NCBI GenBank assembly: GCA_004010535.1
Contig: RQYE01000001.1
Location: forward strand, 310,001 to 374,000
From: Coriobacteriales bacterium OH1046
Lineage (GTDB): Bacteria > Actinomycetota > Coriobacteriia > Coriobacteriales > Atopobiaceae
Direction: 5' to 3'
Length of the DNA: 64,000 nt
The notes below the pieces were generated by a model, which ran no database searches, was not told the origin of the DNA, and saw nothing but the letters and a program-made list of their open reading frames with translations. Of the stretch, positions 32,628 through 59,304 are shown one piece after another. Numbering within the stretch: the first letter of the stretch is position 1; each line of letters starts with the position of its first letter. A program made the translations under genes and the position numbers.

Positions 32628-34043
32628 CTAACCCAGTTGGGCTAGAACCTCGCCCGCGAGCGTGATTGATCCGCACGCAATGTAGGAATCTCCACACAAT
32701 GCGGACGCGGCAGCCTCCACGGAAGGGTAGACGCCTACGACAGCGGCCCCGGCGGCTTGGAAAAGAGCCGCCAGATCCCCTGCGGCAAGCGCGCGGCGCG
32801 AGGCGGTCTGCGTGCAGGCCACGCGCGGGAACTCGGGGGCGAGAAGCGCCACGATGCCTTCCACGTCCTTATCGGCGAGGACCGCGCAGAGCAGGAGGGG
32901 CCTATCCGCCGTCTCGGGCTCGATGGCGCGCACGGCGGCGAGGAAGGCCCCGACCGACTGCGGGTTATGGCAGGCGTCGATGAGGACAGGCGGATCCGGG
33001 CGCAGGAGCTGGAAACGGCCCGGCGTGGGACAGCCGATGATCGAGGTGTAGAGTTTCTCGAGATCGAGGACGCGCCCGAGGTAATCCTCGGCAAGGCAGA
33101 CGGCGCAGGCGATATTGGCGGCCTGATAGCCCGGCTTCAGGGCCGCGAGCTCGGGATAGCTTGCGCGCGGCGTCGTCACCTGCAGCTCGAGGGGGGCGCC
33201 TAAGCGTGCAGGATGCTTGGTGATGGCATAGCTCGCATGGGGAAGGCCCCCGTGCATGCGCGGGACGCCCTCCCCCATCTCGCCGGCGGCATCCTCAAGG
33301 AACTCGGGACGCAGCAGCATCGGCGTGACGTCCTGCTCAAAGCACTGCATGAGGAACACGTCCTCCACGGAGGACGGCGTGGCAGTGCCCACGCCGAGCA
33401 CGCAGGTGCGACCGGGCTTGATGACGGCCGCCTTCTCGGCGGCGATGGCCTCGAGGGTATCGCCGAGCACGTGCATGTGATCGAGCCCCACGCCCGTCAC
33501 CGCGACGGACCGGATGGACTTGACGGCGCTCGTGGCATCCCAACGTCCGCCCATGCCGCATTCGAGAACCGCCGCATCGACCCCCGCACGCGCATAGACC
33601 ACGCAGGCGGCGACGGTGAGCAGGTCGAACTCGGTGATGTCGTACGGGCGCTCGCCCGCTTCGGCGCGTCGTGCGTTCACGCGCCTGCCCGCCTCGAGGG
33701 CGGCGGATACGGCGTAGGCGAACTCCTCCTCCGAAACGGGAGATCCTTGGATCTCCATGCGCTCGGTGTAGGAGACGAGCTCGGGGCTGGTGTAGAGGGC
33801 GCAGCGCACGCCCTCCCCCATGAGGATGGCCGCCGTATAGCGCGACGTCGAGGTCTTCCCGTTGGTACCGGCGATCTGGATCGACCCGAAACGGGTATCG
33901 GGATCGTCCAACTCGGCGAGCATCTCCTCGACGGTTTCGAGCAGGGGCGAGATGCCGAATCTCAGGGTCTCCCGGAGCGTGCGGAGCGCATCGCCATAAT
34001 AGAGAGACGGAACATCGAAGGGAACGCGATAGTCTGTGCTCAT
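32628..34043 (-). CDS. folC: Folylpolyglutamate synthase / dihydrofolate synthase
   Basis: Adds glutamate(s) to dihydropteroate or folates. The 471-residue Mur-ligase-fold enzyme shows IQIAGTNGKTSTSRY (P-loop), ECGMGGRWDATSAV and GPTPGRFQLL-like / LIDACHNPQSV motifs. Its ATG overlaps the end of the formate/nitrite transporter gene by 4 bp, so it is the last member of the one-carbon operon. Confidence 0.93.
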   Translation of the reverse strand: MSTDYRVPFDVPSLYYGDALRTLRETLRFGISPLLETVEEMLAELDDPDTRFGSIQIAGTNGKTSTSRYTAAILMGEGVRCALYTSPELVSYTERMEIQGSPVSEEEFAYAVSAALEAGRRVNARRAEAGERPYDITEFDLLTVAACVVYARAGVDAAVLECGMGGRWDATSAVKSIRSVAVTGVGLDHMHVLGDTLEAIAAEKAAVIKPGRTCVLGVGTATPSSVEDVFLMQCFEQDVTPMLLRPEFLEDAAGEMGEGVPRMHGGLPHASYAITKHPARLGAPLELQVTTPRASYPELAALKPGYQAANIACAVCLAEDYLGRVLDLEKLYTSIIGCPTPGRFQLLRPDPPVLIDACHNPQSVGAFLAAVRAIEPETADRPLLLCAVLADKDVEGIVALLAPEFPRVACTQTASRRALAAGDLAALFQAAGAAVVGVYPSVEAAASALCGDSYIACGSITLAGEVLAQLG

Positions 34044-34825
34044 ACGCCGGGCTTCCCCCCATAGACGAAGCGATAGGTGCAGGCGACGACGAGGGCGCCG
34101 CCCACGACGTTGCCCAACGTGGTGAAGATGATAGTGCGCGCCATGCCGGCGAAGGCGATGGCGTCGAGGCCCAGAGCCGTCTGGGTGAGCATACCGAACG
34201 GGATGAAGAACATGTTGGCGATGCAGTGCTCGAAGCCGCAGGCGACGAAACCGACGACGGGCACCGCTGCGGCAAGGAACTTATCGGCAACCGAAGTCGC
34301 CGCGAAACCTATCCAGACGGCGAGGCAGACGAGCACGTTGCAGAGGATCGCGCGGAAAAAAGCCTCACCGGGAGCCAGCGAGGCCTTTGCGGCGGCGACG
34401 GAAACCGAAGCCTCCCCCACCGCACCGCCCCCGAACGAGCGGAAGACGGCAAGATGCAGGATGAGCGCAAGCAGCAATGAACCGCAGAGGTTGCCCGCAT
34501 AGACGACGCCCCAACGGGAGAGCATCTGCCCGAGGTTGTATTTCTTCGAGAGCATGCCGATGGCCATGAGGGAATTGCCCGTGAAGAGCTCCGCGCCTGC
34601 GGCGAGCACGAGGAAGAGCCCGAGCGAGAAGGCGAGGCCGCCCAACAGCGATGAGAGGCCGAAGGAAAGGGAGCCATCGGCTTTGACGATCAGCATGAAC
34701 GCGGCGCCGAGACCGATATAGAGGCCGGCAAGGCAGCCGAGCGCGAAGGCCTTGGGCAATGCAAGGCCGGCCTTGTCCACCCCAGCCTTCTCTGCAGCGG
34801 CTTCGATCTCCGAAGGGCTCAGCAT
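34040..34825 (-). CDS. Formate/nitrite transporter family protein
   Basis: A 261-residue FNT-family channel with about six membrane helices (GCLAGLYIGLGAAFMLIV, GELFTGNSLMAIGM-type, GRTIIFTTLGNVVGGALVVAC). Given its operon with formate-tetrahydrofolate ligase upstream, formate is the likely substrate, supplying or exporting one-carbon units. The start lies 2 bp after the folE stop. Confidence 0.9.
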   Translation of the reverse strand: MLSPSEIEAAAEKAGVDKAGLALPKAFALGCLAGLYIGLGAAFMLIVKADGSLSFGLSSLLGGLAFSLGLFLVLAAGAELFTGNSLMAIGMLSKKYNLGQMLSRWGVVYAGNLCGSLLLALILHLAVFRSFGGGAVGEASVSVAAAKASLAPGEAFFRAILCNVLVCLAVWIGFAATSVADKFLAAAVPVVGFVACGFEHCIANMFFIPFGMLTQTALGLDAIAFAGMARTIIFTTLGNVVGGALVVACTYRFVYGGKPGV

Positions 34826-34827
34826 AG

Positions 34828-35415
34828 CTAGACTCCGATCAGGCCGAGGGCCTCTTCGCGCGCCTTGAGATCATCCTTGAACCATCCGCGCACGGCCGAT
34901 GTCACCGTCTTGGAGCCGGCGCTTTTGATGCCCCGCATGGTCATGCAGGTATGCTCGGCCTCGAGGACCACGAGAACGCCGCGCGGCGAAAGGCGCTCGA
35001 CGAGGGCGTCGGCGATCTGCTGGGTGAGGCGCTCCTGGAGCTGCGGGCGGCGGGCGAAGCCGTCCACGCAGCGGGCGAGTTTGGAGAGGCCGGTGATCTT
35101 GCCGTTGCCGGGCAGATAGCAGATGTGCGCCCTGCCCACGAACGGCAGGAGATGATGCTCGCACATCGAGGAGAAGGGGATGTCCTTCACGATGACCATA
35201 TCCTCGTTGCCGGGCTCGTCGAACTGCCTGAGGAGGTGGGAGCCGGGATCTTCCTGCATGCCGCCGAAGATCTCCTTGCAGGCACGGGCCACGCGGCCGG
35301 GCGTGTCCTTAAGGCCCGCGCGGTCGGGATCCTCGCCGATGCCGATGAGGAGCTCGCGGATCGCGGCCTCGATACGGGGCTCATCGAGTATACGGTAGCT
35401 CAGCTTCCCGGCCAT
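34828..35415 (-). CDS. folE: GTP cyclohydrolase I
   Basis: The first step of folate synthesis, converting GTP to dihydroneopterin triphosphate. The 195-residue protein carries the zinc-binding [10 protein letters not shown] and [19 protein letters not shown], a typical signature. The start directly follows the folD stop (TAGATG). Confidence 0.96.
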
Positions 35416-36270
35416 CTATGCAGCCATCCTCTCCGCAGCTTCGACCACATGCTTGGCGAGGACCGCCGTCGTGACCGAGCCCACACCTCCGGGAACGGGC
35501 GTGATGGCGCCCACGATGGGCTCGACCTCATCGTATACGACATCGCCTGCGAGCTTCCGGCTCGCCTCGTCCCAGTTTATACCTACATCAACGACGACTT
35601 GCCCGGGAGCAACGGAATCCGCGCCGACGCACCCCAACGAACCGGCTGCGGCGACGAGGATCTCGGCCTTGGCGCATTCGGCGGCGAGATCGCGCGTGCG
35701 GGTATGGCACATGGTGACCGTGGCATTCCTGGCTTGGAGCATCATCGAGACGGGCTTGCCGATGACGAGCGAACGGCCGATGACGGTGACGCGGGCGCCT
35801 TCGAGCCCGTAGCCGTAGAAATCGAGCAGCTCGATCACGGCCTCGGCCGTGCAGGGCGCGAAGCCCACCGGGCGGTTCGCGAAGACGCCGTAGAGCGAGC
35901 CGCTCGTGATGCAGTCCACATCCTTGGCAGGATCGAGGGCTGCGCAGGCGACCGCCTCGTCGAGCGTTTTGGGCAGCGGGCGGAACATGAGGCAGCCGTG
36001 GATGGAGGCGTCGGCGTTGATGCGGTCGATGGCACCCATGAGCTCCGCTTGGGTGCCATCGGCATCGAGGATGGTCCGCTCGACCGCGATGCCTGCGGCG
36101 GCGCAGCGTTTGAGCGCCCCGTGCTCGTAAGCGAGATCGTCATCGCGTGCGCCGACACGGAGGATGGCGAGCTTGGGGATGATGCCCCGCTCGGACAGCG
36201 CCCTCGCGCGCGGGATCAGCTTCTCGGTGAGCGCGGCGGCAACCGGGGCACCCTTGAGCAGTTCTGCCAT
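35416..36270 (-). CDS. folD: Methylene-tetrahydrofolate dehydrogenase, cyclohydrolase lysine missing
   Basis: A 284-residue FolD family protein, oxidising methylene- to methenyl-THF with NAD(P). Rossmann region GRSLVIGKPVSMMLQ and the C-terminal PVPGGVGSVTTAVLAKH are intact. In the active-site helix the usual Y-x-x-x-K is YEHGA (ALKRC follows), so the lysine that serves cyclohydrolase activity in bifunctional FolD is absent. The gene directly upstream encodes a separate cyclohydrolase, consistent with divided functions. ATG 36270 was preferred for spacing from GGGGAG; ATG 36276 overlaps the fchA stop. Confidence 0.92.
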   Translation of the reverse strand: MAELLKGAPVAAALTEKLIPRARALSERGIIPKLAILRVGARDDDLAYEHGALKRCAAAGIAVERTILDADGTQAELMGAIDRINADASIHGCLMFRPLPKTLDEAVACAALDPAKDVDCITSGSLYGVFANRPVGFAPCTAEAVIELLDFYGYGLEGARVTVIGRSLVIGKPVSMMLQARNATVTMCHTRTRDLAAECAKAEILVAAAGSLGCVGADSVAPGQVVVDVGINWDEASRKLAGDVVYDEVEPIVGAITPVPGGVGSVTTAVLAKHVVEAAERMAA

Positions 36271-36275
36271 GATCA

Positions 36276-36917
36276 TCACTCCCCTCCCCTGATGCAATTC
36301 ATGACCTTTGCCTCGACGGCCTCGGCGCGCGGGCACCACGCGGCGAGAAGCTCATCGCATCCGGCCTCGATCCTCTTGGCTGCATCTGAGCAGCCGAGGC
36401 CGGTCAGCACCTTGGTATTGACGAACACGTTGAGGCTCGCGGCCTCGAGCGCGGCTCGGGCGAAGAGCACGCCGCAACCCACGTCGGAGAGGAGCATGCG
36501 CGAGCCCTTCTCGCATAGCTCCTCGAGCAGCTCGATGGCTTCGCAGCACTGGTGCATCATCTCGACGGGAGCGACGATGGCGGCACGGGTGGCCTCCTCG
36601 AGCACCTCGGCGCGTCCCGGATCCTCCTTGGAGATGCCGTAGGCCCTCGAGAGCGGATAGAACGCTGCGGCATCCTCGTCCACGAGCGCGATCAGACGCC
36701 TGCGTATGGCATCGGCAGTCTCCAGCATGCGCTGGATGTCATCCTCGACGGCGACATAGGCCTTCTTGCCGGTGGTGAAGTTGCCCACCATCGATGCGAG
36801 CGCCACGCCGAGGGCGCCCGCATAGGCGGCAGCGCCGCCGCCGCCCGGCACGGGCTGTCCGGAGGCCAGCGCCTCGGCGAATTCGACGCAGCTCTTGTTT
36901 GTAAGGGTTCCAGCCAT
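36276..36917 (-). CDS. fchA: Methenyl-tetrahydrofolate cyclohydrolase (FchA / FTCD-like)
   Basis: A 213-residue cyclodeaminase/cyclohydrolase family protein. The N-terminal SGQPVPGGGGAAAYAGALG and NFTTGKKAY motifs are diagnostic. It should convert methenyl-THF to formyl-THF, linking fhs and folD. It is followed by folD with a TGATG overlap, and lies 206 bp downstream of fhs. Confidence 0.9.
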   Translation of the reverse strand: MAGTLTNKSCVEFAEALASGQPVPGGGGAAAYAGALGVALASMVGNFTTGKKAYVAVEDDIQRMLETADAIRRRLIALVDEDAAAFYPLSRAYGISKEDPGRAEVLEEATRAAIVAPVEMMHQCCEAIELLEELCEKGSRMLLSDVGCGVLFARAALEAASLNVFVNTKVLTGLGCSDAAKRIEAGCDELLAAWCPRAEAVEAKVMNCIRGGE

Positions 36918-37123
36918 GATCGACTTCCTTGTCAGTCAATTCCGGTAATGCCCGCGACCTTCCCAAGGTCCGCCGAGAAGATCTCCTCGGCGCGGGAGGA
37001 TCGCCGGCCATACGGGAAACCTGCACTGAGGCTCCCAGAAGATCCCATAAGGAATCTTTCCGCAGCGCGTCCTTTGCGCGAGGACGTTTCCGAAAAAACC
37101 TCGGAGGCCCTCGAAGCGGTGCT

Positions 37124-38797
37124 TTAGAACAGGCCGACGATCCTCCCATCCTCGGTGACGTCGATCTTCTCGGCGGCGGGCACCTTGGGAAGACCCGGCA
37201 TCGTCATGATGTCGCCGGTGAGGGCCACGATGAAGCCGGCGCCGGCGGAGACCTTGAGGTTGCGCACCGTGATGCGGAAACCGCGCGGCGCTCCGAGCTT
37301 GGTCTGGTCGTCGGTGAACGAGTACTGGGTCTTGGCCATGCAGATGGGGAGCTTGCCGAAACCCTGATCGGTGAGTTCTTTAAGCTGCTTGGCGGCATTG
37401 GAGGTGAGGTCGACGCCATCGGCATGGTAGACCTTGGTGGCGATGGCCTCGAGCTTATCCATGATGGGGGCATCCGCATCATAGGAGAAGCTGAAGCCGT
37501 TGGGTTGGTCGCAGAGGCGGACGACCTCGTCGGCGAGCGCCTCTCCGCCTGCGCCGCCCTTGGCCCAGACCTCGGATAGGGCGACGTTCACGCCGAGTTC
37601 CTTACACTTGGCCTCGACGAGGTCGAGCTCTGCCTTCGTGTCCGTGGGGAAGGCGTTGATGGCAACGACCACGGGAAGCTTGAAGACGTCCTGGATGTTG
37701 GAGACGTGCTGGAGCAGATTCGGTAGGCCGACCTCGACGGCGGCAAGATTCTCGGTGCCGAGATCCGCCTTGGCGACGCCGGCGTTGTGCTTGAGGGCGC
37801 GCACCGTGGCGACGAGGACGACTGCGGAGGGCTTGAGCCCGGTCATGCGGCACTTGATGTCGAGGAACTTCTCGGCACCCAGGTCGGCGCCGAAGCCGGC
37901 CTCGGTCACGACGTAATCGGCGAGCTTCATGGCCGTGGTGGTCGCCTCGACGGAGTTGCAGCCGTGGGCGATGTTGGCGAAGGGACCGCCGTGCACGAAC
38001 GCGGGATTGTTCTCGAGCGTCTGGACCAGATTGGGCTTGATGGCATCTTTCAGGAGCGCCGTCATGGCACCTTGGGCCTTGAGGTCGCCGCAGGTGACGG
38101 GAGCGCGATCGTAGGTGTAGGCCACGACCATGCGGGCGAGGCGGGCTTTGAGGTCGGCGAGGTCGGCGGCGAGGCAGAAGACGGCCATGACCTCGGAGGC
38201 CACGGTGATGTCGAAGCCATCCTGGCGGGGCATGCCGTCGGCGATACCGCCGAGGCCGTCCACCACGTTGCGGAGCTGGCGGTCGTTCATATCGACGCAG
38301 CGGCGCCAGGTGATGCGTCGCGGATCGATGTTGAGTGCGTTCCCCTGCTTGATGTGGTTGTCGATCATGGCGGCGAGCAGGTTGTTGGCGGCACCGATGG
38401 CATGGAAGTCGCCGGTGAAATGCAGGTTGATGTCCTCCATGGGGACGACCTGGGCGTAACCGCCGCCGGCGGCACCGCCCTTGACGCCGAAGACGGGACC
38501 GAGGGAGGGTTCGCGCAGGCAGAGCATCGTCTTCTTGCCGATACGGTTGAGGCCGTCGGCGAGGCCCACGGACGTGGTGGTCTTGCCCTCGCCCGCAGGC
38601 GTGGGGTTGATGGCCGTCACGAGGATGAGCTTGGCCGATGCCGGCCTATCCCTAAGCGAGTGGATATCGACCTTGGCCTTGTACTTTCCGTAGTGCTCGA
38701 GCATATCGTCGGAAAGGCCCACCTTGGCGGCGACCTCCGAGATAGGGAGCATGGTTGCCGCCTGCGCGATCTCGATATCGGATTTGATCTCTGCCAT
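37124..38797 (-). CDS. fhs: Formate-tetrahydrofolate ligase
   Basis: Makes 10-formyl-THF from formate, THF and ATP. The 557-residue length is typical; the P-loop is [14 protein letters not shown], and [21 protein letters not shown] follows. The ATG has AAGGAGAGAGA upstream. The product feeds purine synthesis or, run in reverse, makes ATP. It stands 206 bp upstream of the fchA-folD-folE-FNT-folC run. Confidence 0.97.
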
Positions 38798-39102
38798 TCT
38801 CTCTCCTTCTTCCGGCGGGCAGATGCCCGTGCCCGAACCCATTATCCGGTACGTGCTGCTCGAAACCCCATGCATATCCGGCATGGCATCATGCCGGTTC
38901 GAAAAACACACCGAGTGTAGCGTGGAACACCCGCAGTCCGAATACTCAGAAGTGCGCATTTTACCGGCCGGTATCCCGACGTTTTGTCGGCCACTGGTAT
39001 TATCGCGGAGCGGGAGCCGAACTCTCAACAGGCAAATGCACAAAGCATCGCCGCGCGTTTTCGTCGAATCTGCACAGAGGACGGAGCGTTGGCCTCCTCA
39101 AA
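38798..39102. promoter_or_regulatory. Upstream region of fhs with small palindromes
   Basis: About 300 bp without a gene. It contains a perfect CCGGCATG / CATGCCGG hairpin (38878-38897), the palindrome ACCGGCCGGT near 38960-38970 and CCGAC / GTCGG. I looked for the ZTP (pfl) and THF riboswitch conserved cores and did not see them. It probably holds the fhs promoter. Confidence 0.4.
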
Positions 39103-39193: not shown

Positions 39194-40039
39194 CTATATG
39201 AGCTCCATGCCGAGCATATCGGGCGCCTGACAAGTGAGCGTTGCAGCCTCGAGGCCCCAATCCACCACCAGGCAGTGCCCACTCACGTACTCGGCCAACT
39301 CGCTGCCGAGGTACAGGCAGGCCCTGCCCATGACGGACGGGTCGGCGATGGGCTTGCCGTTTCCCACGCTGGCCTCGAACTGCTTCCTAGCACCCGGCAC
39401 GGCCTCGTAGAACTCGGTCATGAAGCGCGAACCCGTAGAGCAGGGCAGCACCGCATTGATGCGCACGTCGCGCGCGGCGAACCCAGCGGTCTTCGAGGCC
39501 ACGAGGAAGTTCATCGCGCGCTTGGCGAGCATGTAGGCCATAGTGCCGCCCGCATCGTCCATATCGAGGTCGTGGATGGCCTCGATGGTCGCGTCCCAGC
39601 CGTCGGCCTCCACGATCGCGCGATACTCGCCGATGAGCTCCCCTTTGGCCCAGCGCACGCCCGCCGTGGAAGTGACGAAGGTGATCGATCCGCCCGGCGC
39701 CGCGCGCTCGGCGAGGTAGGTGTCGAGCAGGTACTTGTTGGCGACGAAGTCGATGATGAAGGTGTCGATGTAGCCGTTCTTCACGCCCGAGACGCCCGCC
39801 ACGCCGAAGAAGCAGTCGATACGCCCGGGAAGCTGCGCAAACGCTGTATCGATGGAGTCACGTGAAACCTGATCGAGCCTGACCCAACCTGCCTGGCCGG
39901 GAATGTCCGCCTCTCGCCTGCTCGCGGTCCAAACCTCGGCCCCGCAGTCCACGAGCATCTCCGCGAGCGCGCGGCCCATGCCCGAGCTCGCACCCGTCAC
40001 CACGCAGACCTTGCCCGCATAGCCCAGATAGTCGTTCAT
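39194..40039 (-). CDS. Short-chain dehydrogenase/reductase (3-alpha-hydroxysteroid dehydrogenase-like)
   Basis: A 281-residue SDR. The NAD(P) motif VVTGASSGMGRALAE is canonical; Ser in FVTSTAGV and the YxxxK pair in MAYMLAKRAMNF are present. The long insertion before the catalytic Tyr (about residues 150-180) resembles 3-alpha-hydroxysteroid dehydrogenase-type SDRs, a weak hint at substrate. ATG 40039 has AAGGGGAATCGC upstream. Follows the PanB-like gene by 84 bp. Confidence 0.85.
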   Translation of the reverse strand: MNDYLGYAGKVCVVTGASSGMGRALAEMLVDCGAEVWTASRREADIPGQAGWVRLDQVSRDSIDTAFAQLPGRIDCFFGVAGVSGVKNGYIDTFIIDFVANKYLLDTYLAERAAPGGSITFVTSTAGVRWAKGELIGEYRAIVEADGWDATIEAIHDLDMDDAGGTMAYMLAKRAMNFLVASKTAGFAARDVRINAVLPCSTGSRFMTEFYEAVPGARKQFEASVGNGKPIADPSVMGRACLYLGSELAEYVSGHCLVVDWGLEAATLTCQAPDMLGMELI

Positions 40040-40123: not shown

Positions 40124-41005
40124 CTAGGCCTCGAAGGCATCCATCAAGGCGTTGAACTTGTCGAGCTCCTCGGGATCCATGTGGTAGCCGTGCTTGTCCT
40201 CGGGGTAGTCGCCCTCGCGCACGTCCTCGAGCCAGCCCATGTAGGCCTCGCAGAGGAACGGGAGCAGGGCGGCATAGCTCTTGGCGTGGGATGCCGGCTT
40301 GGGCATGACGCCGAAGGTGTCCATATCGACCATCTCGGAGCCGTCGCAGGGCGCGCCACCCGCGATGGATACCACGGGAACGCGGAGCCTCTCGGCGATG
40401 GCCTGCGAGACCTCCATGGGCGTGAGCTCGATGGTCATGCCGCCCATGCCATTCTCCTGATACTCGTAGCCCCATTTGAAGATCTTGAAGGCATCCTCGG
40501 CGGTCTTGCCGACGCGCTTGTAGCCGGTGGCGTTGGTCTGCCAGCCGGAGATGGCGCCGATATGGCCGTAGGTGGGCACGTAATTGTCGCTCATGAATTT
40601 GAGAACGTCGTTGGTGACGCCCATGGGAAGCATGGAGTCGGCACCGTGGAATACGAGCTCGGCACCGTTCTTCACAGCGTCGACCTTGTCGGCATACATG
40701 GAGATGGGCATGTAGAAGTTGATGTGGATGATCTTGCAATACTCGCGGAACTTCTTGATGGTGAGGCGGGAGCCGATCTTGTCCTCTTCGGCGGTGGTGC
40801 CGGTGCGGGTGGAGATCATGTGCGGGATGCGGCAGATATCGCAGCCGACCATCTCGGCGGCCAACGCGAAGAAGGGGCCGAGCTCTGCGGGGCACATCTG
40901 GACGATCTTTTCGCCTTTGTCCTTCATCTTCTGCAGGTAGGCGAGGTTCTTGCGGGATTTCGAAGCGGTGGACATCTTGATGTCGGCATGCTCGTTATCA
41001 GCCAT
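40124..41005 (-). CDS. Ketopantoate hydroxymethyltransferase (PanB)-like protein
   Basis: A 293-residue (beta-alpha)8 protein. VPTYGHIGAISGWQTNATGY and the following KRVGKTAEDA, plus GGAPCDGSEMVDMDTFG, line up with PanB signatures (GHIGLTPQ...GGYK, GAG..CDGQ). However, the metal/substrate regions deviate strongly (SISMYADKVDAV and HGADS in place of PanB's DMPF and KLEGG). It sits among redox genes, not with panC/panD, so a different reaction of the PanB/PEP-mutase superfamily is likely. Start has AAGGAACCAAC. Confidence 0.7.
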   Translation of the reverse strand: MADNEHADIKMSTASKSRKNLAYLQKMKDKGEKIVQMCPAELGPFFALAAEMVGCDICRIPHMISTRTGTTAEEDKIGSRLTIKKFREYCKIIHINFYMPISMYADKVDAVKNGAELVFHGADSMLPMGVTNDVLKFMSDNYVPTYGHIGAISGWQTNATGYKRVGKTAEDAFKIFKWGYEYQENGMGGMTIELTPMEVSQAIAERLRVPVVSIAGGAPCDGSEMVDMDTFGVMPKPASHAKSYAALLPFLCEAYMGWLEDVREGDYPEDKHGYHMDPEELDKFNALMDAFEA

Positions 41006-41158: not shown

Positions 41159-41374
41159 TTACGCATCCAGCGCGTCAAGGCGGGCGATGATCTCCTCGAC
41201 GGTCTCCTTGGGAAGACCGGTCTGCGGGAACTTGAGGAGGGTCTTCATCTTCATGCCCTTGACGGGGCCGAGCTCGGGATTGGAGATGAACCCGGGGATG
41301 TACTCGTCGATGATCGCAACGGCACGCTCGTCCTCGAGAATCTCGGAAAGCTTGCTCTTGCTGCTGATGGCCAT
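41159..41374 (-). CDS. Small helical protein, DUF1858-like
   Basis: A 71-residue protein, probably all-helical: SEILEDERAVAIIDEYIPGF, then GMKMKTLLKFPQ and an acidic C-terminal helix. The pattern 'residues-decay, loop, helix' recalls DUF1858 and small domains found at the ends of larger enzymes, but I cannot assign a function. AAGGAAGCATC precedes the ATG. It lies 71 bp after the SDR gene upstream. Confidence 0.7.
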   Translation of the reverse strand: MAISSKSKLSEILEDERAVAIIDEYIPGFISNPELGPVKGMKMKTLLKFPQTGLPKETVEEIIARLDALDA

Positions 41375-41445: not shown

Positions 41446-42348
41446 CTAGCCGTGGAGGCCGCCTTCCATGGTGTAGCTCCACGGCTTCTCCTGGAAGCTG
41501 AAACCGGCACCGCCATCCACCTCGACGACCTTGCCGTACATGAAGTCGGAGACATTCGTGCACATGGTGACGATCATGCGGGCCATCTCGTCCGGAGTCG
41601 ATGCGACGGGGGTATCCTTGCCGCCGCCCATCTGATCGGCCTGCCATTCGGCCCCGTAGCGCGCGACCGTCTCGACGCAGTTGGCGATCGCGCCGGGGGT
41701 GACCATGCCGCCGGGGGCGACGCAGTTCACGTTGATGCCGTACTGTTTGAGCTCCTTGGCGATGCCGCGCGTCATGCCGACGACGCCGGCCTTGGCGGCG
41801 TTGTACGGGGTCATCATGGCGAGATGCGCCATGTCCTCTCCGCGGTAGGCGACCGAGGCGATGGTGACGATCTTGCCGCCATGCTTCGCCCTGACCATGG
41901 AGCGGGCCGCAGCCTGCACGAGGAAGTACTGGCCTTTCATATCGGTATCGACGATATCGTCGTAGAGTTCCTCATCCATGTCAAGAAAAGCGCGGGCCTG
42001 CCAGGTGGCGGCCACGGGCACGCAGATGTCGACGGGACCGAACCGTTCCTCGGCGAATCTCACGAGCCCCGCGCATTCATCAACGTCGCGCGTATCGAAC
42101 TGCTTGAAGGCCGCGTCCTCGTAGCCGAGATCGCCGAGGGCCGCGAGGGCCATATCGCCCCACTCCTGGGTACGGGCGCCGAAGACGACCTTGGCACCGC
42201 ACTCGAGGAGGCGGTTGATGACGAACAGGGCAAGGCCGACCGATCCGGAGACGACGGCCACCTTGCCGGAGAGATCGAACACCTCCGAGATGGGCGCCAC
42301 GTCCTCAAGGCTATCGGCCGACATGTCGAACAACGTTTCCTTGTCCAT
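41446..42348 (-). CDS. Short-chain dehydrogenase/reductase with altered nucleotide motif
   Basis: A 300-residue SDR. The active site is complete (Ser in TIASVAYRG, Tyr-Lys in TPYNAAKAG, and NVNCVAPGGM downstream), but the dinucleotide motif reads VVSGSVGLALFV, not TGxxxGIG. This loses the last conserved glycine and may change cofactor use. It has an N-terminal extension of about 28 residues. Strong ribosome site GGAAAGGGG. Upstream lies a 202-bp gap carrying a motif shared with the luxR promoter. Confidence 0.85.
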   Translation of the reverse strand: MDKETLFDMSADSLEDVAPISEVFDLSGKVAVVSGSVGLALFVINRLLECGAKVVFGARTQEWGDMALAALGDLGYEDAAFKQFDTRDVDECAGLVRFAEERFGPVDICVPVAATWQARAFLDMDEELYDDIVDTDMKGQYFLVQAAARSMVRAKHGGKIVTIASVAYRGEDMAHLAMMTPYNAAKAGVVGMTRGIAKELKQYGINVNCVAPGGMVTPGAIANCVETVARYGAEWQADQMGGGKDTPVASTPDEMARMIVTMCTNVSDFMYGKVVEVDGGAGFSFQEKPWSYTMEGGLHG

Positions 42349-42422: not shown

Positions 42423-42462
42423 GGGCATAGCTGGGTATCTTTCGTACCTAATTTTTAGTATA
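42423..42462 (+). promoter_or_regulatory. Shared motif site 1, upstream of SDR gene
   Basis: GGGCATAGCTGGGTATCTTT is followed by ATTTTTAGTATA. 16 of the first 20 bases and the AT-rich tail match site 2 upstream of the LuxR gene. It lies 75-114 bp before the SDR start. A binding site for the LuxR protein is the inference. Confidence 0.5.
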
Positions 42463-42550: not shown

Positions 42551-42967
42551 TTACTGTTCGCACGCCCATTCGCGGATCTTGTTCTCGCGCACGTCGCGCT
42601 CGAGGAAGGCCAGATCATCTCCGAAAAAGCGCTTAATCTCGCCCACAGTCGTGCCCTGGCGCTTAGCCATGGCTTCGGCCTCGGCAAGCAGTTCCTCGGG
42701 AGCCACCGTTACGTCGAGCTTCTTCGTAAGATCGCGCAACACGAGCGGCTCCTTGGCCTCGAACGCGGCCGCCTCGCGCAGCTCGTCCTCCATCTCGGCA
42801 AGCTCTTGGTCGGGAAAGACGTGCGTCTCTCCTCCGCTCATCTGCGCATACATCATGCGGTGCTTCATGTCGGCACGCACCATCTCGTATTCCCGTGCCA
42901 CGCTCTCCTCGGGAACCTCGATGTCGTAGGAGGCCACATACGCACGCCACGTGCTCTCGTCGATCAT
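42551..42967 (-). CDS. Stand-alone trigger-factor C-terminal-domain-like chaperone
   Basis: A 138-residue, strongly acidic, helical protein. Residues about 85-138 (LDVTVAPEELLAEAEAMAKR, then FLERDVRENKIREW) match the pattern of the trigger factor C-terminal (SurA-like) domain, and the N-terminal part continues that helical style. The ribosome-binding and PPIase domains of normal trigger factor are absent. Its ATG overlaps the chaperonin stop (ATGA), so both are made together. It probably binds a particular client. Confidence 0.65.
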   Translation of the reverse strand: MIDESTWRAYVASYDIEVPEESVAREYEMVRADMKHRMMYAQMSGGETHVFPDQELAEMEDELREAAAFEAKEPLVLRDLTKKLDVTVAPEELLAEAEAMAKRQGTTVGEIKRFFGDDLAFLERDVRENKIREWACEQ

Positions 42968-44622
42968 CGTGCGCCACCCACATGGAACGCCTCGGCCAGA
43001 TTGACCTCGCCCCTCTTGACAGGCGTGACGCCGGCTTCGGTGATGAGCAGCGTCTCGGCCACCGAGAAGGACGCCTCGAGCGCCGAGCGCGTCACGCGCA
43101 CCGGATCGATGATGCCCCCCTCGAACATATCGACGTAGCGATCGAGAGCCGCATCGTAGCCCATTCCGACGGGGAGTTCGGAGAGCTTCTCGATGATCGC
43201 ACGGCCGCTCGCACCCGCATTCTCCGCGATGCGGAGAATCGGGGCCTTGCACGCCTCAATGGCGATGGCGGCACCCGTGCGCTCGTCACCTTCGAGCACG
43301 GCAGCGAGCTCCCCGAGCGAAGGGGCCAAAGCGAGCAGCGCTATGCCGCCTCCTGCGACCACGCCCTCCTCATAGGCTGCGCGGGCGGCGTTGACGGCAT
43401 CCTCCACGCGCATCTTGCGCTCCCACTGCTCGGGTTCCGTGGCGCCGCCCACGGCAATGGTGGCGACACCCGAGACAAACGCCGCCAGCCGCTCCTCATG
43501 GCGCTTGCGGTTGAACTCGTACTCGGTGTTCCCGGCGCGGTAGCGCAGCTCGGCCACGCGCTTGGCGATGGCCTCGGGATCCCCGCGGCCGCCCGAGATG
43601 ATGGTACGCGTGCGTGTGACCTTCACACGGTCGGCGGAACCGAGCATGTCGCGCGTGACATCGCGTAGGGAGATGCCCATCTCCTCGCTCACGTACATGC
43701 CGCCCGTCTGCACGGCGATATCGTCCATGCGCCAGCGGCGGCCCTCGCCATAGGCCGGTGCCTGCACGCAGGCCACGTTCATATCGCCCTCGAGCTTGTT
43801 GCGCATGACGAGCTCCAGGGCGTCACCCTCAAGACCGTCGCAGAGCACGAGCATATCGCGCCCATCCTCGGCCGCGCAGATGAGCGCCGGGATGATATCC
43901 TGGGCGTTCTCGAACTTCTTATCGCAGATGAGGATGCAGGGGTTCTCGAGCACGCACTCACCGGAGCGGGCATCGGTTGCCATATGGGGCGAGATGAGCG
44001 TGCGATCGAAGACGATGCCCTCGTCCACCGTGAGCTCGGTCTCCACCCGCTGCGAGTCGTCCACGTTGACGACACCCTCGAGGCCCACACGATAAAGCGC
44101 CTCCCCCACCAGGGCGCCCAACGCGGGATCCTGGCAGGAGATGGTGGCAACGCGGGAGATATCCTCCTGCGTCTCCACGGGTACCGCAAAATCCGCAAGC
44201 TTCTTCACAGCGAGCTCACCCGCCTTCTTGATGCCGCGACGTAGCGCCAAGGGATCGGCGCCGGCGGCGATGTTGCGGAATGCGCCCTGCAAGATGGCCT
44301 GTGCGAGCACGATAGCGGTCGTGGTGCCGTCGCCCGCCTCGTCATTGGCCTTGATGGCGGCCGCGCGGCACAGCTGCGCACCCATGTTCTTGACGGGATC
44401 TTTGAACGAGACCTCCTTGGCGATGGTGACGCCATCGTTGGTGATGAGCACGTGGGCGCCTGCCCGCGCGGTCTCGCCGTAGTCGGCCCCGTAGAGGTTC
44501 GCCTTCTGATGCATCGCGATGGTGCGACCCTTGGGTCCCAACGTCGCGCTTACGGTATCCGCGAGCTCGTCGACTCCCGAGAGCAACGCCTTACGTGCAG
44601 CATCGCCATGAATGATAGCCAT
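42964..44622 (-). CDS. Divergent GroEL-type (group I) chaperonin
   Basis: A 552-residue Hsp60 homologue. The ATPase motif EAGDGTTTAIVLAQA and VVAGGGIALL are intact, and TLGPKGRTI is near the N-terminus. Oddities: an insertion of about 12 residues before NDGVTIAKE (stretch YGADYGETARAGAHVLIT), no GGM-repeat tail, and no groES next to it. It lies 18 bp after the luxR-type gene and overlaps the TF-like gene. It is thus likely an extra chaperonin dedicated to this cluster rather than the housekeeping GroEL. Confidence 0.88.
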   Translation of the reverse strand: MAIIHGDAARKALLSGVDELADTVSATLGPKGRTIAMHQKANLYGADYGETARAGAHVLITNDGVTIAKEVSFKDPVKNMGAQLCRAAAIKANDEAGDGTTTAIVLAQAILQGAFRNIAAGADPLALRRGIKKAGELAVKKLADFAVPVETQEDISRVATISCQDPALGALVGEALYRVGLEGVVNVDDSQRVETELTVDEGIVFDRTLISPHMATDARSGECVLENPCILICDKKFENAQDIIPALICAAEDGRDMLVLCDGLEGDALELVMRNKLEGDMNVACVQAPAYGEGRRWRMDDIAVQTGGMYVSEEMGISLRDVTRDMLGSADRVKVTRTRTIISGGRGDPEAIAKRVAELRYRAGNTEYEFNRKRHEERLAAFVSGVATIAVGGATEPEQWERKMRVEDAVNAARAAYEEGVVAGGGIALLALAPSLGELAAVLEGDERTGAAIAIEACKAPILRIAENAGASGRAIIEKLSELPVGMGYDAALDRYVDMFEGGIIDPVRVTRSALEASFSVAETLLITEAGVTPVKRGEVNLAEAFHVGGAR

Positions 44623-44640
44623 CGTGCCGATCTCCCATCC

Positions 44641-45396
44641 CTACTTTCCCAAGAGCTTCACGAGAAGCTCCTGTTTGCTGTCCACTCCGAGCTTCCTGTA
44701 GATATGCGCGATATGCTTGTTCGTCGTGCCGAGCGAGATGCGGAGCTTACGTGCGATGTACACCGGTTTGATACCTTGGCAGAGCAGGTCCAGCACCTCG
44801 CGCTCGCGCTGCGTGAGCTCATCCACCCCCGCGATACCATCCCACATGCGCACCTGCGCGGTCGGCCGAGCGAAGAGGTTCTTGTAGAGGTTGCCCAGAT
44901 GGGCGGCAATCAACTTGACCGTCTCCACCTCGAGTTGCGTGAACTTCCCGTCGATCAAACGGTCGAGCGCGAATGCCGTGGCAGGGGCACCTTTGAGGTC
45001 GAACAAGGTGAACGAGAGGGTTTGGGAGAGCCTGCGCGGACGGATGTAGTTGCGCATGAAATCGTTCTGGATCCAGTCGATCTCATGCCAGTCGATGAGA
45101 TCGACATGGCCAGAGCCCTCGGTCTCGAAAACATCGGTCGTCAAGCCGAAATCGTCATCCACCGACTTTGCGTAGTAGTTGAGGTACATCTGCATCCAGC
45201 GCTCCGAGAACCCCACGAAGTGCTTGCGGGCAATCTTGCGGTTTCCGTCGAGCAGGAGGAACACGGCCTGATCGTACGGGATGATATCGCTAATCTTCTC
45301 TATCACGTTCACGCAGAAGCGGTACGGCTCGTGGATGTTGCCGCAAGCGAGCACGAAATCGCTGCATGCTTTCCAAGGAACAGCCCGCGCTCCCAT
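44641..45396 (-). CDS. LuxR-family transcriptional regulator
   Basis: A 251-residue regulator: an N-terminal GAF/autoinducer-domain-like sensor (residues 1-170) and a C-terminal LuxR helix-turn-helix (ELTQREREVLDLLCQG, then ISLGTTNKHIAHIYRKLGV). There is no receiver domain, so it likely binds a small ligand directly. It begins the luxR-chaperonin-TF operon and lies next to the redox genes it may control. Upstream it has a motif also found before the SDR gene. Confidence 0.85.
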   Translation of the reverse strand: MGARAVPWKACSDFVLACGNIHEPYRFCVNVIEKISDIIPYDQAVFLLLDGNRKIARKHFVGFSERWMQMYLNYYAKSVDDDFGLTTDVFETEGSGHVDLIDWHEIDWIQNDFMRNYIRPRRLSQTLSFTLFDLKGAPATAFALDRLIDGKFTQLEVETVKLIAAHLGNLYKNLFARPTAQVRMWDGIAGVDELTQREREVLDLLCQGIKPVYIARKLRISLGTTNKHIAHIYRKLGVDSKQELLVKLLGK

Positions 45397-45455: not shown

Positions 45456-45482
45456 TATACCTAAAAATACCCATATCTGCCC
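45456..45482 (-). promoter_or_regulatory. Shared motif site 2, upstream of luxR-type gene
   Basis: On the minus strand GGGCAGATATGGGTATTTTT then AGGTATA; matches site 1 at 42423-42462. Located 60-86 bp before the regulator start, suitable for autoregulation. Confidence 0.5.
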
Positions 45483-45710: not shown

Positions 45711-47774
45711 TTACCTCCCCACCTTCATGGCGACCTCGTAGGCACGCCAGATCACGGAGCGCAGGTTGCCCACGGAAAGGCAGTCTCCCACCAGGTGCAC
45801 GTTCCTGCCCGCCGGGACGAGCGGTGCCGGGTCATAGCCGACCGATCCGATCACGCTGTCGCACGCGATCGCGAACGCCGTGCCGGCGGCATCGCGGCAG
45901 AGGATCGAGCCGTCGCGCACCTCCGCGAGCGTGGTCTCCAGATACACGGGGACCTCGTGCAGGGCAAACCATTCGCGCAGATACGAGCTGTTCGCGAGGC
46001 ACACGCCCTTCTGCGCGATGAGATCGTCCTTCATCTCGACGATGATGGGGCGCTTCCCCTGGAGCGCCAGCTCGTAGGCTATCTCGGAACCGGTGAGGCC
46101 GCCGCCGATGACGGCCACCGTCTGGCCCACCTCGCGCTTCCCCAGCAGGTACTCGCAGGCCTCGACCATGCGTTCGTGGCCGGGCACGCTGCGCAGCACC
46201 TTGGGCGCCGCGCCCGTGGCGATGATCACCGGTCGGTCGCCGAATTCGGCGATGTCGCGGATCTCGGTATCGAGATGCACCTCCACATCCAGCTCGTCCA
46301 TCTGCCTTCTGTACCAGACGAGCAGATCGCGGAGCTTGCCCTTGTAGCTCTCGGCGCTCGCGGCGATGAAGGTGCCGCCCAGCTCGGATCCGCGCTCGTA
46401 GATCACGGGATGGTTGCCCTGGAGCGCCAGCACGCGGGCGCACTCCATGCCGCCGATGCCCCCGCCCACGATGATGACGGTCTTCGAGCGTTCGGTCTTC
46501 TCGATATGGTGCTTGTCCCACTGGAGCATCTCGGCGTTCACGGCGCAGCGGGCCAGATGCAGGCTGTCCGTGAGGTCCTGATCGTTGGGAACGCCCTTGT
46601 AGTGGCACATGTTGAAGCAGCCGTTGTGGCAGAGGATGCACGGGCGGATATCCTCCTCGCGCCCCTGGCTGAGCTTGGCCACCCACTGCGGGTCGGCGAG
46701 GAACCGCCGCGCGAAGCCGGCGCCGTCGAGCCGTCCCGCCGCGATCTCAGCGGCGGCGACGTGCGGATCGAGCCTGCCCGCGCACACCACGGGGATGTCC
46801 ACGAACTGCCTGATATGCTCCACGTCCGCGAGGTTGCAGTTCTCGGGCATGTAGATGGGAGGATGGGCCCAGTACCAGGCATCGTAGGTGCCGTTGTCGC
46901 AGTTGAGCATCGCATAGCCGGCATCTTGGAGATAGCGCGCGACACGCTCGGACTCCCCCATCGAGCGCCCGACCTCATCGAACTCCTCGCCGGGGAGCGC
47001 ACCTTGACGGAAGCCCTTGGTCTTCGAGACGACGCTGTAGCGGAGCGACACCGGGAAATCGTCTCCGCAGGCCTCGTGGATCGCCTGCACGATACGCACC
47101 GCGAAGCGGTAGCGGTTCTCGAAGGAACCGCCGTACTCATCGGCGCGCTTGTTCACATAGGGGAGGGTGAACTGATCGAGGAGGTAGCCCTCGTGCACCG
47201 CGTGGACCTCGACACCGTCGACCCCGGCTTCCCTGAGCTTGCACGAGCATGCTGCGAACGAGTGCACGAACTCGTCGATCTCCGGCACGGTCATGGCACG
47301 CGAGGGCACCTTGTCCGACCATCGGTTGGGACTCGGGCTTGCCGAGGCGCATATGCGGTCGAGGTCCATGAAGGGCTTCGAGAGCGTTCGCAACACGGGA
47401 TTCTCCCAAAGCCGCTCCATCAGGGCGCTGATGGTGAAGGAGCGGCCGAAACCAGCTGTGAGCTGCACGAAAAGCTTCGCGCCCGTCTTGTGGAAGCTTG
47501 GCATCCATGCGGCAAGGTCGCGGTACATCCTATCATTCTTGTGCAGCCACTGCCCGAACATCGGATTGTAGACAGGCTGGCAGCCGGGCAGCACAAGGCC
47601 TGCACCGCCTTCGGCCACTTCCATGATGAAGCGCGCGCCATCCCTGTCGAAGTGGTTCTTCTCCATCCATCCGAAGAGGTCGGTGCCGCCCATCGAGGTC
47701 ACGACGATCCTGTTCTTGACCTCGCATGAGCCGATCTTCCACGGGGTGAAGAGGGGCTTCAGGCTCTCGTCCAT
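45711..47774 (-). CDS. Old-yellow-enzyme family NADH:flavin oxidoreductase with 4Fe-4S (BaiCD/2-enoate reductase-like)
   Basis: A 687-residue enzyme in three parts: an FMN-binding TIM barrel (KNRIVVTSMGG, GYLLDQFTLPYVNKRADEYG), a 4Fe-4S cluster (CILCHNGCFNMC, about residue 370), and FAD/NAD domains (VIIVGGGIGGMECA, VAVIGGGLTGSEIA). The family reduces activated C=C bonds (2-enoates, bile acid intermediates, trimethylamine dehydrogenase relatives). Start has GGAGGTACGC. It is followed upstream by the aconitase-X pair at 23 bp, so a dehydration then enoate-reduction sequence is plausible. Confidence 0.88.
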   Translation of the reverse strand: MDESLKPLFTPWKIGSCEVKNRIVVTSMGGTDLFGWMEKNHFDRDGARFIMEVAEGGAGLVLPGCQPVYNPMFGQWLHKNDRMYRDLAAWMPSFHKTGAKLFVQLTAGFGRSFTISALMERLWENPVLRTLSKPFMDLDRICASASPSPNRWSDKVPSRAMTVPEIDEFVHSFAACSCKLREAGVDGVEVHAVHEGYLLDQFTLPYVNKRADEYGGSFENRYRFAVRIVQAIHEACGDDFPVSLRYSVVSKTKGFRQGALPGEEFDEVGRSMGESERVARYLQDAGYAMLNCDNGTYDAWYWAHPPIYMPENCNLADVEHIRQFVDIPVVCAGRLDPHVAAAEIAAGRLDGAGFARRFLADPQWVAKLSQGREEDIRPCILCHNGCFNMCHYKGVPNDQDLTDSLHLARCAVNAEMLQWDKHHIEKTERSKTVIIVGGGIGGMECARVLALQGNHPVIYERGSELGGTFIAASAESYKGKLRDLLVWYRRQMDELDVEVHLDTEIRDIAEFGDRPVIIATGAAPKVLRSVPGHERMVEACEYLLGKREVGQTVAVIGGGLTGSEIAYELALQGKRPIIVEMKDDLIAQKGVCLANSSYLREWFALHEVPVYLETTLAEVRDGSILCRDAAGTAFAIACDSVIGSVGYDPAPLVPAGRNVHLVGDCLSVGNLRSVIWRAYEVAMKVGR

Positions 47775-47797
47775 GCGTACCTCCTGTCTTCGCGCCG

Positions 47798-48238
47798 CTA
47801 TCCCACGATGACGACGCCGTCTTCGCCCACGGTGACGGTCATGCCGGTGGCAACACAGTCGAGGAATTCCTCGCCGAGGCCATCGACCACGGGCATGCTC
47901 GCGTCCGTCCACACGGCGCCGAGGATGGCACCGGATGCGGCGAGCGAGTCGATGGGCATCGAGAAGAGCATGCAGGCGGGTTGGCGGCCCATGGCGCACG
48001 CAGCATAGAGCACCATGCCGCCCGTGGTCGAGCCGATGGTCATGGGCAGGCAGAGCGCCTTGCCCGCCATGGGCCTCTTGTAGAGGTCGAGGTTGTTCTG
48101 GTCGCCGCACCTGACCTTCTTGTCCCCGAACATGAGCGCCATCTGGTAGCTTGCGAGCGTGTTGAAGCCGCCGTGGCTCACGAGCGCCTCGGCCGTGCAC
48201 GTTCCCGGCACCACGACGCGACCTTTGAACTGCCTCAT
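47798..48238 (-). CDS. Aconitase-X swivel domain protein (DUF126, small subunit)
   Basis: A 146-residue AcnX small subunit. GTCTAEALVSHGGFNTLASY and SIGSTTGGMVLYAACAMG are typical of the swivelling domain. ATG 48238 gives ideal spacing from GGAGG; ATG 48244 overlaps the large-subunit stop as ATGA. Together the pair forms a dehydratase, known for cis-3-hydroxyproline and phosphomevalonate in relatives. Confidence 0.87.
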   Translation of the reverse strand: MRQFKGRVVVPGTCTAEALVSHGGFNTLASYQMALMFGDKKVRCGDQNNLDLYKRPMAGKALCLPMTIGSTTGGMVLYAACAMGRQPACMLFSMPIDSLAASGAILGAVWTDASMPVVDGLGEEFLDCVATGMTVTVGEDGVVIVG

Positions 48239-48240
48239 CG

Positions 48241-49515
48241 TCATCGCCTCCCCCCGCAGATGATGTCGAGCACGTCGGCCTCGGTCTCGTACTTCGCGCT
48301 CGTATAGGTGCGCAGCTTGTTCGACGAGGTGATAACGGCCTTGAGCTTGCAGAGCGGGTTGTTCATGTACATGAGCGGGCAGATCGGGCTGAGCACGATG
48401 CCCATGCGCTTGGCGCGCATGTAACCGTCGCCTTTCTGGAACTCGCGGATCACGCGCACGGGAGCGGTGAACACCGTGGGCACGGCAACCCTCTCGCGAC
48501 CGCGCGCATTGAGCCCGCGCTCGACATCGGCGGTCCACGTTTCGAGCTGGGCGAGCGAAAGATGCGGGCAGCCCACGAAGCAGAGCTCGGGTTTGGACTT
48601 CGGGTTCTTCCAGATGACGGGGTAGCTCCTGCGCACGCGCTCGAGCTCCGCATCGTCGATGACGTAGGTCTTGGCGCCTTCGGCGATGAGCGCCTCGCCT
48701 CGCTCCTTGGCTTCGGGTGTGAGGCCGTCGATGTGGTAGAGGCCGACCGCGCCATTGGAGGCGGTGGCGGCGCCGAAATCCTTGAGGTAGGCCGTGGCAT
48801 CGTCGGTGAGCTCTCCTCCCAGCCACCGGTCGAGTCCGCGCACATAGGGCACCTCCTCCATCACGCGCATACCGATGGCAGAGCCCAGAAGCTGGGCCTC
48901 GGGCTTCTTGGAGCACGTGACGTCGATCATCCAAGTGGCTTTGCGCCCCTCGTCGGTGAGGAGCCCGAACTCGGGAACGAAGCCTGCGATGGATCCCATC
49001 AGCTCGATGATGCCCGAGTTGCGGTTGCACCGTGCGCCGAGCACCGAGTTGGCATACACGACGGCCGAGGACTCCGCCCACGAGAGCACATCCCCCTTCT
49101 TGGGAAGGTTGCCCACCTCGTCGAGATAGCAGGCGCAGGTGTAGGCATCATCCCCTTTGATGCCGAGACGCTGGAGCTGCGCCTCGAAACGCTCCTGCTC
49201 GGAGTACATGAAGCGCCTGAAGACGAGGTTCTCGAGCAGCGAGGAGGGCACGCTTTTGTCCAACGGACGCGGATCGGCCGTGAACCGCTGGCCGCTCGCG
49301 ATGCCCGCGCCGATGATCTGGTCGAAGAGATCGTAGACCGGCTCCATCACCCCCAACCCGAAGCTGATCACCGTGTGCCCGTACTCGCCCGTGACGGGCA
49401 CCATGCGCTCTGCGCCGAAGGTCTCGCCGTACATGATGAGGGTTTTGACGATCTTCGCCATCACCTCGCCCCGGCTCCCATCGAGAAGCGCCTGCTGCTC
49501 GGACGTCAAATACAT
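48241..49515 (-). CDS. Aconitase-X catalytic domain protein (DUF521, large subunit)
   Basis: A 424-residue AcnX large subunit. Probable cluster cysteines lie in YTCACYLDEVG, VTCSKKPEAQ and the C-terminal PICPLMYMNNPLC, and LTSEQQALLDGSRGEVMAK is the standard N-terminus. Substrate is unknown; it is not near proline or mevalonate genes here. GGAGGGG precedes the ATG. It is the first gene of the AcnX-OYE transcript. Confidence 0.9.
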   Translation of the reverse strand: MYLTSEQQALLDGSRGEVMAKIVKTLIMYGETFGAERMVPVTGEYGHTVISFGLGVMEPVYDLFDQIIGAGIASGQRFTADPRPLDKSVPSSLLENLVFRRFMYSEQERFEAQLQRLGIKGDDAYTCACYLDEVGNLPKKGDVLSWAESSAVVYANSVLGARCNRNSGIIELMGSIAGFVPEFGLLTDEGRKATWMIDVTCSKKPEAQLLGSAIGMRVMEEVPYVRGLDRWLGGELTDDATAYLKDFGAATASNGAVGLYHIDGLTPEAKERGEALIAEGAKTYVIDDAELERVRRSYPVIWKNPKSKPELCFVGCPHLSLAQLETWTADVERGLNARGRERVAVPTVFTAPVRVIREFQKGDGYMRAKRMGIVLSPICPLMYMNNPLCKLKAVITSSNKLRTYTSAKYETEADVLDIICGGRR

Positions 49516-49635
49516 GCGACCACCCCTCCCCCTCAAAGCGACCGTTCGATCCCCATCATACGTCCGGGGAGCCGATCGCTGCTCATCCGCACCGCAGGCG
49601 GCAACGACTCCTCCGCATGAGGGGCTGGGGCGATG

Positions 49636-59117: not shown

Positions 59118-59230
59118 GGTCGATCGCTTCCTTCCGGGCTGTTGCGGGCGAAACCTGCCGCTCGATAGATGACATGGATGCTTATACCCAAGTTGGACGG
59201 TTCGGATACCCCAGCACCGTGCGCTTGCAA

Positions 59231-59304
59231 TAGCATACACTCCAGGGGCTTTCCTGCTGTTTTTTCTAGAAGAAAGGCCCGTTGAGCTTCTAAAGTGTAT
59301 GTTA
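59231..59304. repeat. 74-bp palindromic repeat, copy 3
   Basis: TAGCATACACT ... AGTGTATGTTA, 74 bp, inner TTTTTTCTAGAAGAAA. Its last bases (TTA at 59302-59304) are the TAA stop of the DUF559-like gene. Confidence 0.9.

Follow-up and report, generated by a model that had tools for sequence, protein, structure and literature searches.

Among the proteins encoded in organohalide-respiration gene clusters, RdhD and RdhE are GroEL-like. The cprTKZEBACD cluster of Desulfitobacterium combines RdhD and RdhE, both predicted molecular chaperones, with RdhT, a trigger-factor homologue (PMC3306737), and PceT is known as the dedicated chaperone of PceA (PMC8905343). A chaperonin can also be encoded together with a soluble di-iron monooxygenase in an operon without groES, as is the case for MmoG, MimG and the GroEL of the smo cluster, and mimG is required to obtain active MimABCD (PMC9324122, PMC7570240, PMC11057499). 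The known cases of dedicated chaperonins mostly concern oxygenases or dehalogenases that are hard to express, and it is still debatable to what extent a chaperonin may become adapted to a single client. At the locus described here, a chaperonin and a trigger-factor partner reduced to a minimum share one small block with two soluble proteins that are candidate clients, a short-chain dehydrogenase and a TIM barrel.

The window, that is, the whole 64,000-nucleotide stretch of DNA analysed, covers positions 310001-374000 of contig C1 in a genome of 2.38 Mb on 19 contigs. Those of its genes that are discussed are all encoded on the reverse strand. A LuxR/NarL-type regulator of 251 residues with a C-terminal Pfam GerE domain (44641-45396) is followed, 18 bp after its stop codon, by the ATG of GroEL2, a divergent chaperonin of 552 residues with a Cpn60_TCP1 domain (42964-44622). 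The TGA of GroEL2 in turn overlaps, as ATGA, the start codon of TFC, a stand-alone trigger-factor C-domain protein of 138 residues with a Trigger_C domain (42551-42967), so that the translational coupling described in an earlier, sequence-only reading of this DNA stands as noted. Downstream lie SDR1, a short-chain dehydrogenase (41446-42348), a conserved 70-residue protein without a family match (41159-41371) and PanB-A, a TIM barrel resembling ketopantoate hydroxymethyltransferase (40124-41005); SDR1 and PanB-A are constant neighbours of the pair and candidate clients. These are followed by a second short-chain dehydrogenase, SDR2 (39194-40039), which is present at some loci only, and by folate C1 genes (32628-38800; formate-THF ligase, cyclodeaminase, FolD, GTP cyclohydrolase I, a formate transporter and a Mur-ligase-like protein), which are found near the module at many loci. 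Upstream, outside the conserved module, an OYE-type oxidoreductase and two AcnX subunits are encoded (45711-49536), and the flanks are indeed oxidoreductase genes, with an OYE-type FMN/FAD enzyme on one side and an SDR on the other. Farther upstream, at a distance of about 12 kb from the module, the window encodes an HSP90 (HtpG; 57147-59336), and at locus L036 an HSP90 gene precedes LuxR by about 1.3 kb.

Elsewhere in the genome, contig C18 carries the only groES, which immediately precedes a canonical groEL (C18:48681-50261) whose product is 44% identical to GroEL2, and a complete trigger factor is encoded at C1:2003-3196; GroEL2 and TFC are therefore extra copies. This bears out the earlier remark that groES is not adjacent to GroEL2, and the presence of a canonical groEL removes one of the outcomes named there as refuting. 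GroEL2 is encoded with one enzyme set besides the canonical groESL, as would be expected of a dedicated enzyme chaperonin in the manner of MmoG or MimG. In part because of this redundancy, and in line with the earlier proposal of a folding module apart from the housekeeping GroESL, we consider that GroEL2 and TFC probably form a dedicated folding module for a pathway comprising SDR1, the 70-residue protein and PanB-A. We infer that PanB-A and SDR1 are its most likely clients, and likewise the part played by TFC.

The pair and both of its reading frames are kept at 17 further loci, indicating that their association is not due to chance, and the pair was found in every intact locus. At these 17 loci SDR1 accompanies it, as do, wherever the contig extends far enough, the 70-residue protein, which is kept at nearly all loci, and PanB-A; at several loci PanB-A is followed by SDR2 and the folate C1 genes. 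Gene order is LuxR-GroEL2-TFC-SDR1 at most loci and GroEL2-TFC-LuxR-SDR1 at L067, L081 and L083, and the persistence of the link to SDR1 in both orders argues for a dedicated module. The same is true of the distribution: PanB-A, counted at an identity of at least 75%, occurs in 13 of 398 Coriobacteriia genomes; all 13 also have TFC, which is otherwise present in G039 alone, a genome with only fragments of the module. By genus, both are present in the same 7 of 153. Because of the kinship among the genomes and the linkage of the genes, we attach no P value to this co-occurrence. Among 396 genomes of the phylum, PanB-A was found in the source genome only. Those carriers that have names are assemblies of Coriobacteriia, filed under Atopobiaceae, Coriobacteriaceae, Eggerthellaceae, Olsenella or Atopobium; for several the label gives goat or deer gut, and the RUG isolates among them are presumably rumen genomes.

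PanB-A scores 79.4 bits against the PanB equivalog, below its cut-off of 207.55 bits. Of the catalytic positions compared, H136 and E181 are kept and D45, D84, K112 and E114 are not, in an alignment that is weak N-terminally, so that by sequence PanB-A is like KPHMT but does not keep the PanB Mg ligands. For this reason we rejected the idea, which had come from gene order, of a reverse PanB reaction that feeds the folate C1 genes by turning a hydroxymethyl group into formate and ATP. No canonical PanB above the curated cut-off was found in the genome, and because PanB-A is its only PanB-like gene, the organism may be unable to make pantothenate. PanB-like genes of a second type, type B, are 43-47% identical to PanB-A and occur in sets of the order LuxR-SDR-PanB-like (L037:255-3035, L040:13325-16116 and L046:5243-8035), with neither GroEL and TFC nor the palindrome described below.

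In G005, GroEL and TFC have diverged to 45% and 31% identity with those of the source genome, compared to 78% for PanB-A and 70% for SDR1. Despite this divergence, the chaperone pair still stands beside PanB-A, which again supports a dedicated module, and its GroEL has an insert of 13 residues at the position where GroEL2 carries its own. PanB-A and SDR1 are the only genes that accompany the pair at all intact loci, G005 included. The PanB-like protein of G005 (L047:10903-11892, reverse strand) has an N-terminal extension, MAINSSSKLSEV..., that resembles the start of the 70-residue protein, as if the two had been partially fused. Two genomes, G039 and G032, lack intact PanB-A and SDR1 of the module type at the locus, and only fragments of the pair are left in them, as would be expected of a module that serves these enzymes: in G039, a deletion fuses the central part of TFC to the last part of PanB-A, and about 164 residues of GroEL2 survive; G032 retains a piece of a G005-type GroEL and a piece of TFC that contains a stop, and neither PanB-A nor SDR1 lies in their vicinity. 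Both are probably metagenome assemblies, and a misjoin may lie behind a single one of these cases.

Could GroEL2 and TFC instead be a general second chaperone pair, specific for stress or certain conditions, that merely moves with the gene block? Actinobacteria commonly have additional GroELs that are not accompanied by groES (PMC5904260), all co-occurrence falls within one linked block, and linked genes moving as a block would co-occur without any chaperone-client relation too; moreover, the type-B PanB-like/SDR pairs manage without GroEL2 and TFC, which speaks against a dedicated module. However, a pair of general use should not be reduced to fragments just where the enzymes are missing, nor be absent from genomes of the class without PanB-A, in which we found it nowhere save for the fragments in G039. 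With the operator-like sites common to the enzyme unit and the uniform alteration of the client surface, both described below, also standing against it, we regard this explanation as unlikely.

GroEL2 matches Cpn60_TCP1 with 202.7 bits over residues 20-528 and PRK12849 with 558 (cut-off 352) and, having the Cpn60 fold over its full length, is a type I chaperonin; its 543.7 bits against the housekeeping GroEL equivalog TIGR02348 remain below the cut-off of 582.1. A tree built from 18 GroEL2 proteins, as many canonical GroELs of Coriobacteriia, the GroEL of E. coli and two other relatives shows GroEL2 as a clade of its own (support 100/99) and places E. coli GroEL with the canonical set, with the deep order unsure because of long branches. 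Like the canonical GroEL of its own genome, GroEL2 has the chaperonin fold and a full ATPase site, its ATP-binding and catalytic residues (D52, D87, T89-91, D398, D495 and others) being invariant in 18/18 orthologues. Unlike that protein, it has no adjoining groES, carries an insert, lacks the GGM tail and is changed on the surface for clients and GroES. In E. coli GroEL, the apical surface binds both clients and GroES. The conserved apical residues of housekeeping GroELs are replaced in GroEL2 in a uniform way: Y199 by L or M (17/18), Y203 by H (14/18), F204 by M or L, E238 by I (18/18), T261 by L (16/18), V264 by R, E, G or Q, and R268 by E (14/18). The F44 loop has given way to an insert of constant length in all 18 orthologues; the insertion reported earlier is therefore real, although it measures 14 residues net rather than about 12, and the GGM tail, likewise reported as absent, is missing from all 18. 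At the bottom of the E. coli GroEL cavity, clients are contacted by the F44 loop and by the C-termini (PMC10723157). A model of the GroEL2 monomer has a mean pLDDT of 83, its low-confidence stretches being the insert and the tail. This combination of an invariant ATPase site with a changed apical surface, F44 loop and tail argues for a dedicated chaperonin.

TFC, whose reading frame opens with the C-domain and which has no ribosome-binding or PPIase domain, matches Trigger_C with 49.5 bits (cut-off 22.7) and the full-length trigger factor model TIGR00115 at positions 283-408 of 410 only (52.1 versus 180.2 bits for the equivalog); an alignment of 13 orthologues is invariant in 37 of 138 columns. 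Its AlphaFold model is all-helical (pLDDT 92), and the top matches in a fold search were the Thermotoga trigger factor C-domain, Mycoplasma MPN555 and SurA-type chaperones. For Thermotoga trigger factor and MPN555, Z reached 7.7-7.9 over 113-129 residues at 14-18% structural identity, just below 8 and modest for a helical fold, but the sequence match to Trigger_C makes the assignment safe. A profile search of PDB sequences gave chance matches only. The earlier suggestion that the protein be modelled led back to the trigger factor C-domain, a resemblance that again favours a folding module; TFC is like these chaperones in fold, but differs from trigger factor in lacking the other domains and in being tied to a chaperonin gene. 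A recent origin from the genome's own trigger factor was rejected, the two being only 27% identical over 88 residues (E 0.011).

The changed client and GroES surface and the loss of the tail and F44 loop, together with the retention of the 70-residue protein at nearly all loci, would also be consistent with a GroEL2 that has ceased to be a folding machine and instead uses ATP to scaffold or assemble a complex of PanB-A, SDR1 and the 70-residue protein, with TFC as a linker. A complete ATPase site in 18/18 orthologues and the membership of TFC in a chaperone family fit folding better, however, and we consider the scaffold improbable.

The regulator carries a GerE domain (52.4 bits) that is closest to NarL; its N-terminal domain had no Pfam match, and no receiver domain was matched. 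Palindromes close to ATACCTANNNNTAGGTAT, with the core TACCTAN-NN-NTAGGTA, lie upstream of SDR1 and in front of the gene that opens the chaperone unit, in the window as ATGGGTATTTTTAGGTAT (45457-45474) in front of LuxR-GroEL2-TFC and ATACTAAAAATTAGGTAC (42444-42461) in front of the SDR1-PanB-A unit. NarL sites have the same 7-2-7 layout, for example TACCCCTAAAGGGGTA (PMC4549865), and inverted heptamers at a spacing of 2 bp, together with the GerE domain, fit binding of the NarL type, as a prediction. The mean best match was 11.8/14 for SDR1 promoters (18 loci) and 10.7/14 for the chaperone unit (16 loci), compared to 8.1 (sd 0.17) in dinucleotide shuffles, for a motif picked by eye from both promoter sets, whose orthologous members are not independent. 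Scores for internal starts and control promoters were 7-9, except those for formate-THF ligase in L081 (12) and for the canonical groES of the source genome (10). Within the window, the pattern occurs with at most three mismatches at the two module sites only (expected 0.27), and where gene order is altered, the palindrome still precedes the first gene. A genome-wide scan at the same tolerance gave 28 sites versus 33 in a reversed control, so that we call no regulon from it; the case for an operator is based on position conserved across loci. Palindromes common to chaperone and enzyme units again argue for a dedicated module. In G005, where no LuxR orthologue lies nearby, the palindrome is missing in front of SDR1. 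In the window and at L038, L040 and L042, formate-THF ligase is preceded by a palindrome (about TGCTCANNNNTGAGTAT) that resembles this one without being the same, and in L081 this gene has a near-full match to the module motif. An extra half-site just downstream of the SDR1 operator (around 42430) forms palindromes like GGTATNAAANATACC in several genomes, for example at L041 and L043, a sequence pattern that suggests three adjacent half-sites.

That the regulator itself is the client, its activity being gated by GroEL2 and TFC, would agree with its place adjoining or neighbouring the pair at most loci, but in G005 the pair lies beside PanB-A with no LuxR orthologue near and the related LuxR genes of the type-B loci are not accompanied by one, making this very improbable. 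As for the clients first proposed, the OYE-type Fe-S flavoprotein and AcnX, we rejected them as hardly credible, since these genes, which had suggested a redox cluster, adjoin the module in the source genome alone, with neither near it at any other locus and no operator-like site upstream of either. Of the co-regulation with neighbouring enzymes that had been suggested, only the part concerning SDR1-PanB-A is retained, on the in silico evidence of common operator-like sites.

For the dedicated module, we propose the following mechanism. The LuxR/NarL-type regulator would bind the conserved palindromes before both units, so that folding machinery and enzymes are produced together. TFC, which corresponds to the client-cradling part of trigger factor without its ribosome-binding and prolyl-isomerase domains, would hold the new enzyme chain and hand it over to GroEL2, which would fold or assemble PanB-A and/or SDR1 in a predicted ATP-driven ring; the changes in its binding surface and cavity floor may adapt it to a narrow client set. 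The lid would be the housekeeping GroES or none. A stricter form, in which GroEL2 is a GroES-free, client-specific chaperonin with TFC as loader or co-chaperonin, is rather doubtful; if true, anaerobic Actinomycetota would have a two-part chaperonin system of a new kind. With this block, the specificity for clients, the need for GroES and the function of a trigger-factor C-domain on its own become directly testable, with natural controls in type-B enzymes without the pair and in genomes where pair fragments persist and the enzymes are gone, and it flags an uncharacterised pathway beside folate C1 genes in ruminant gut bacteria.

In the literature searched, we found no GroEL paired with a stand-alone trigger-factor C-domain. 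Client-enzyme chaperonins are already known; the combination of such a pair with a NarL-type regulator and SDR/PanB-like partners did not turn up in that literature either and is taken to be new. The organohalide-respiration clusters resemble the module in placing a trigger-factor homologue and predicted chaperones beside a special enzyme and a regulator in anaerobes, a likeness in working principle drawn from gene content. They differ in that the module has only the C-domain of trigger factor, translationally coupled to GroEL, a LuxR/NarL-like rather than a CRP-FNR regulator, and SDR and PanB-like enzymes instead of a Tat-exported dehalogenase. The clients of MmoG, MimG and the smo GroEL are aerobic monooxygenases with no trigger-factor partner mentioned; what GroEL2 has in common with these chaperonins is again the working principle, a chaperonin encoded with its enzyme in an operon that has no groES.
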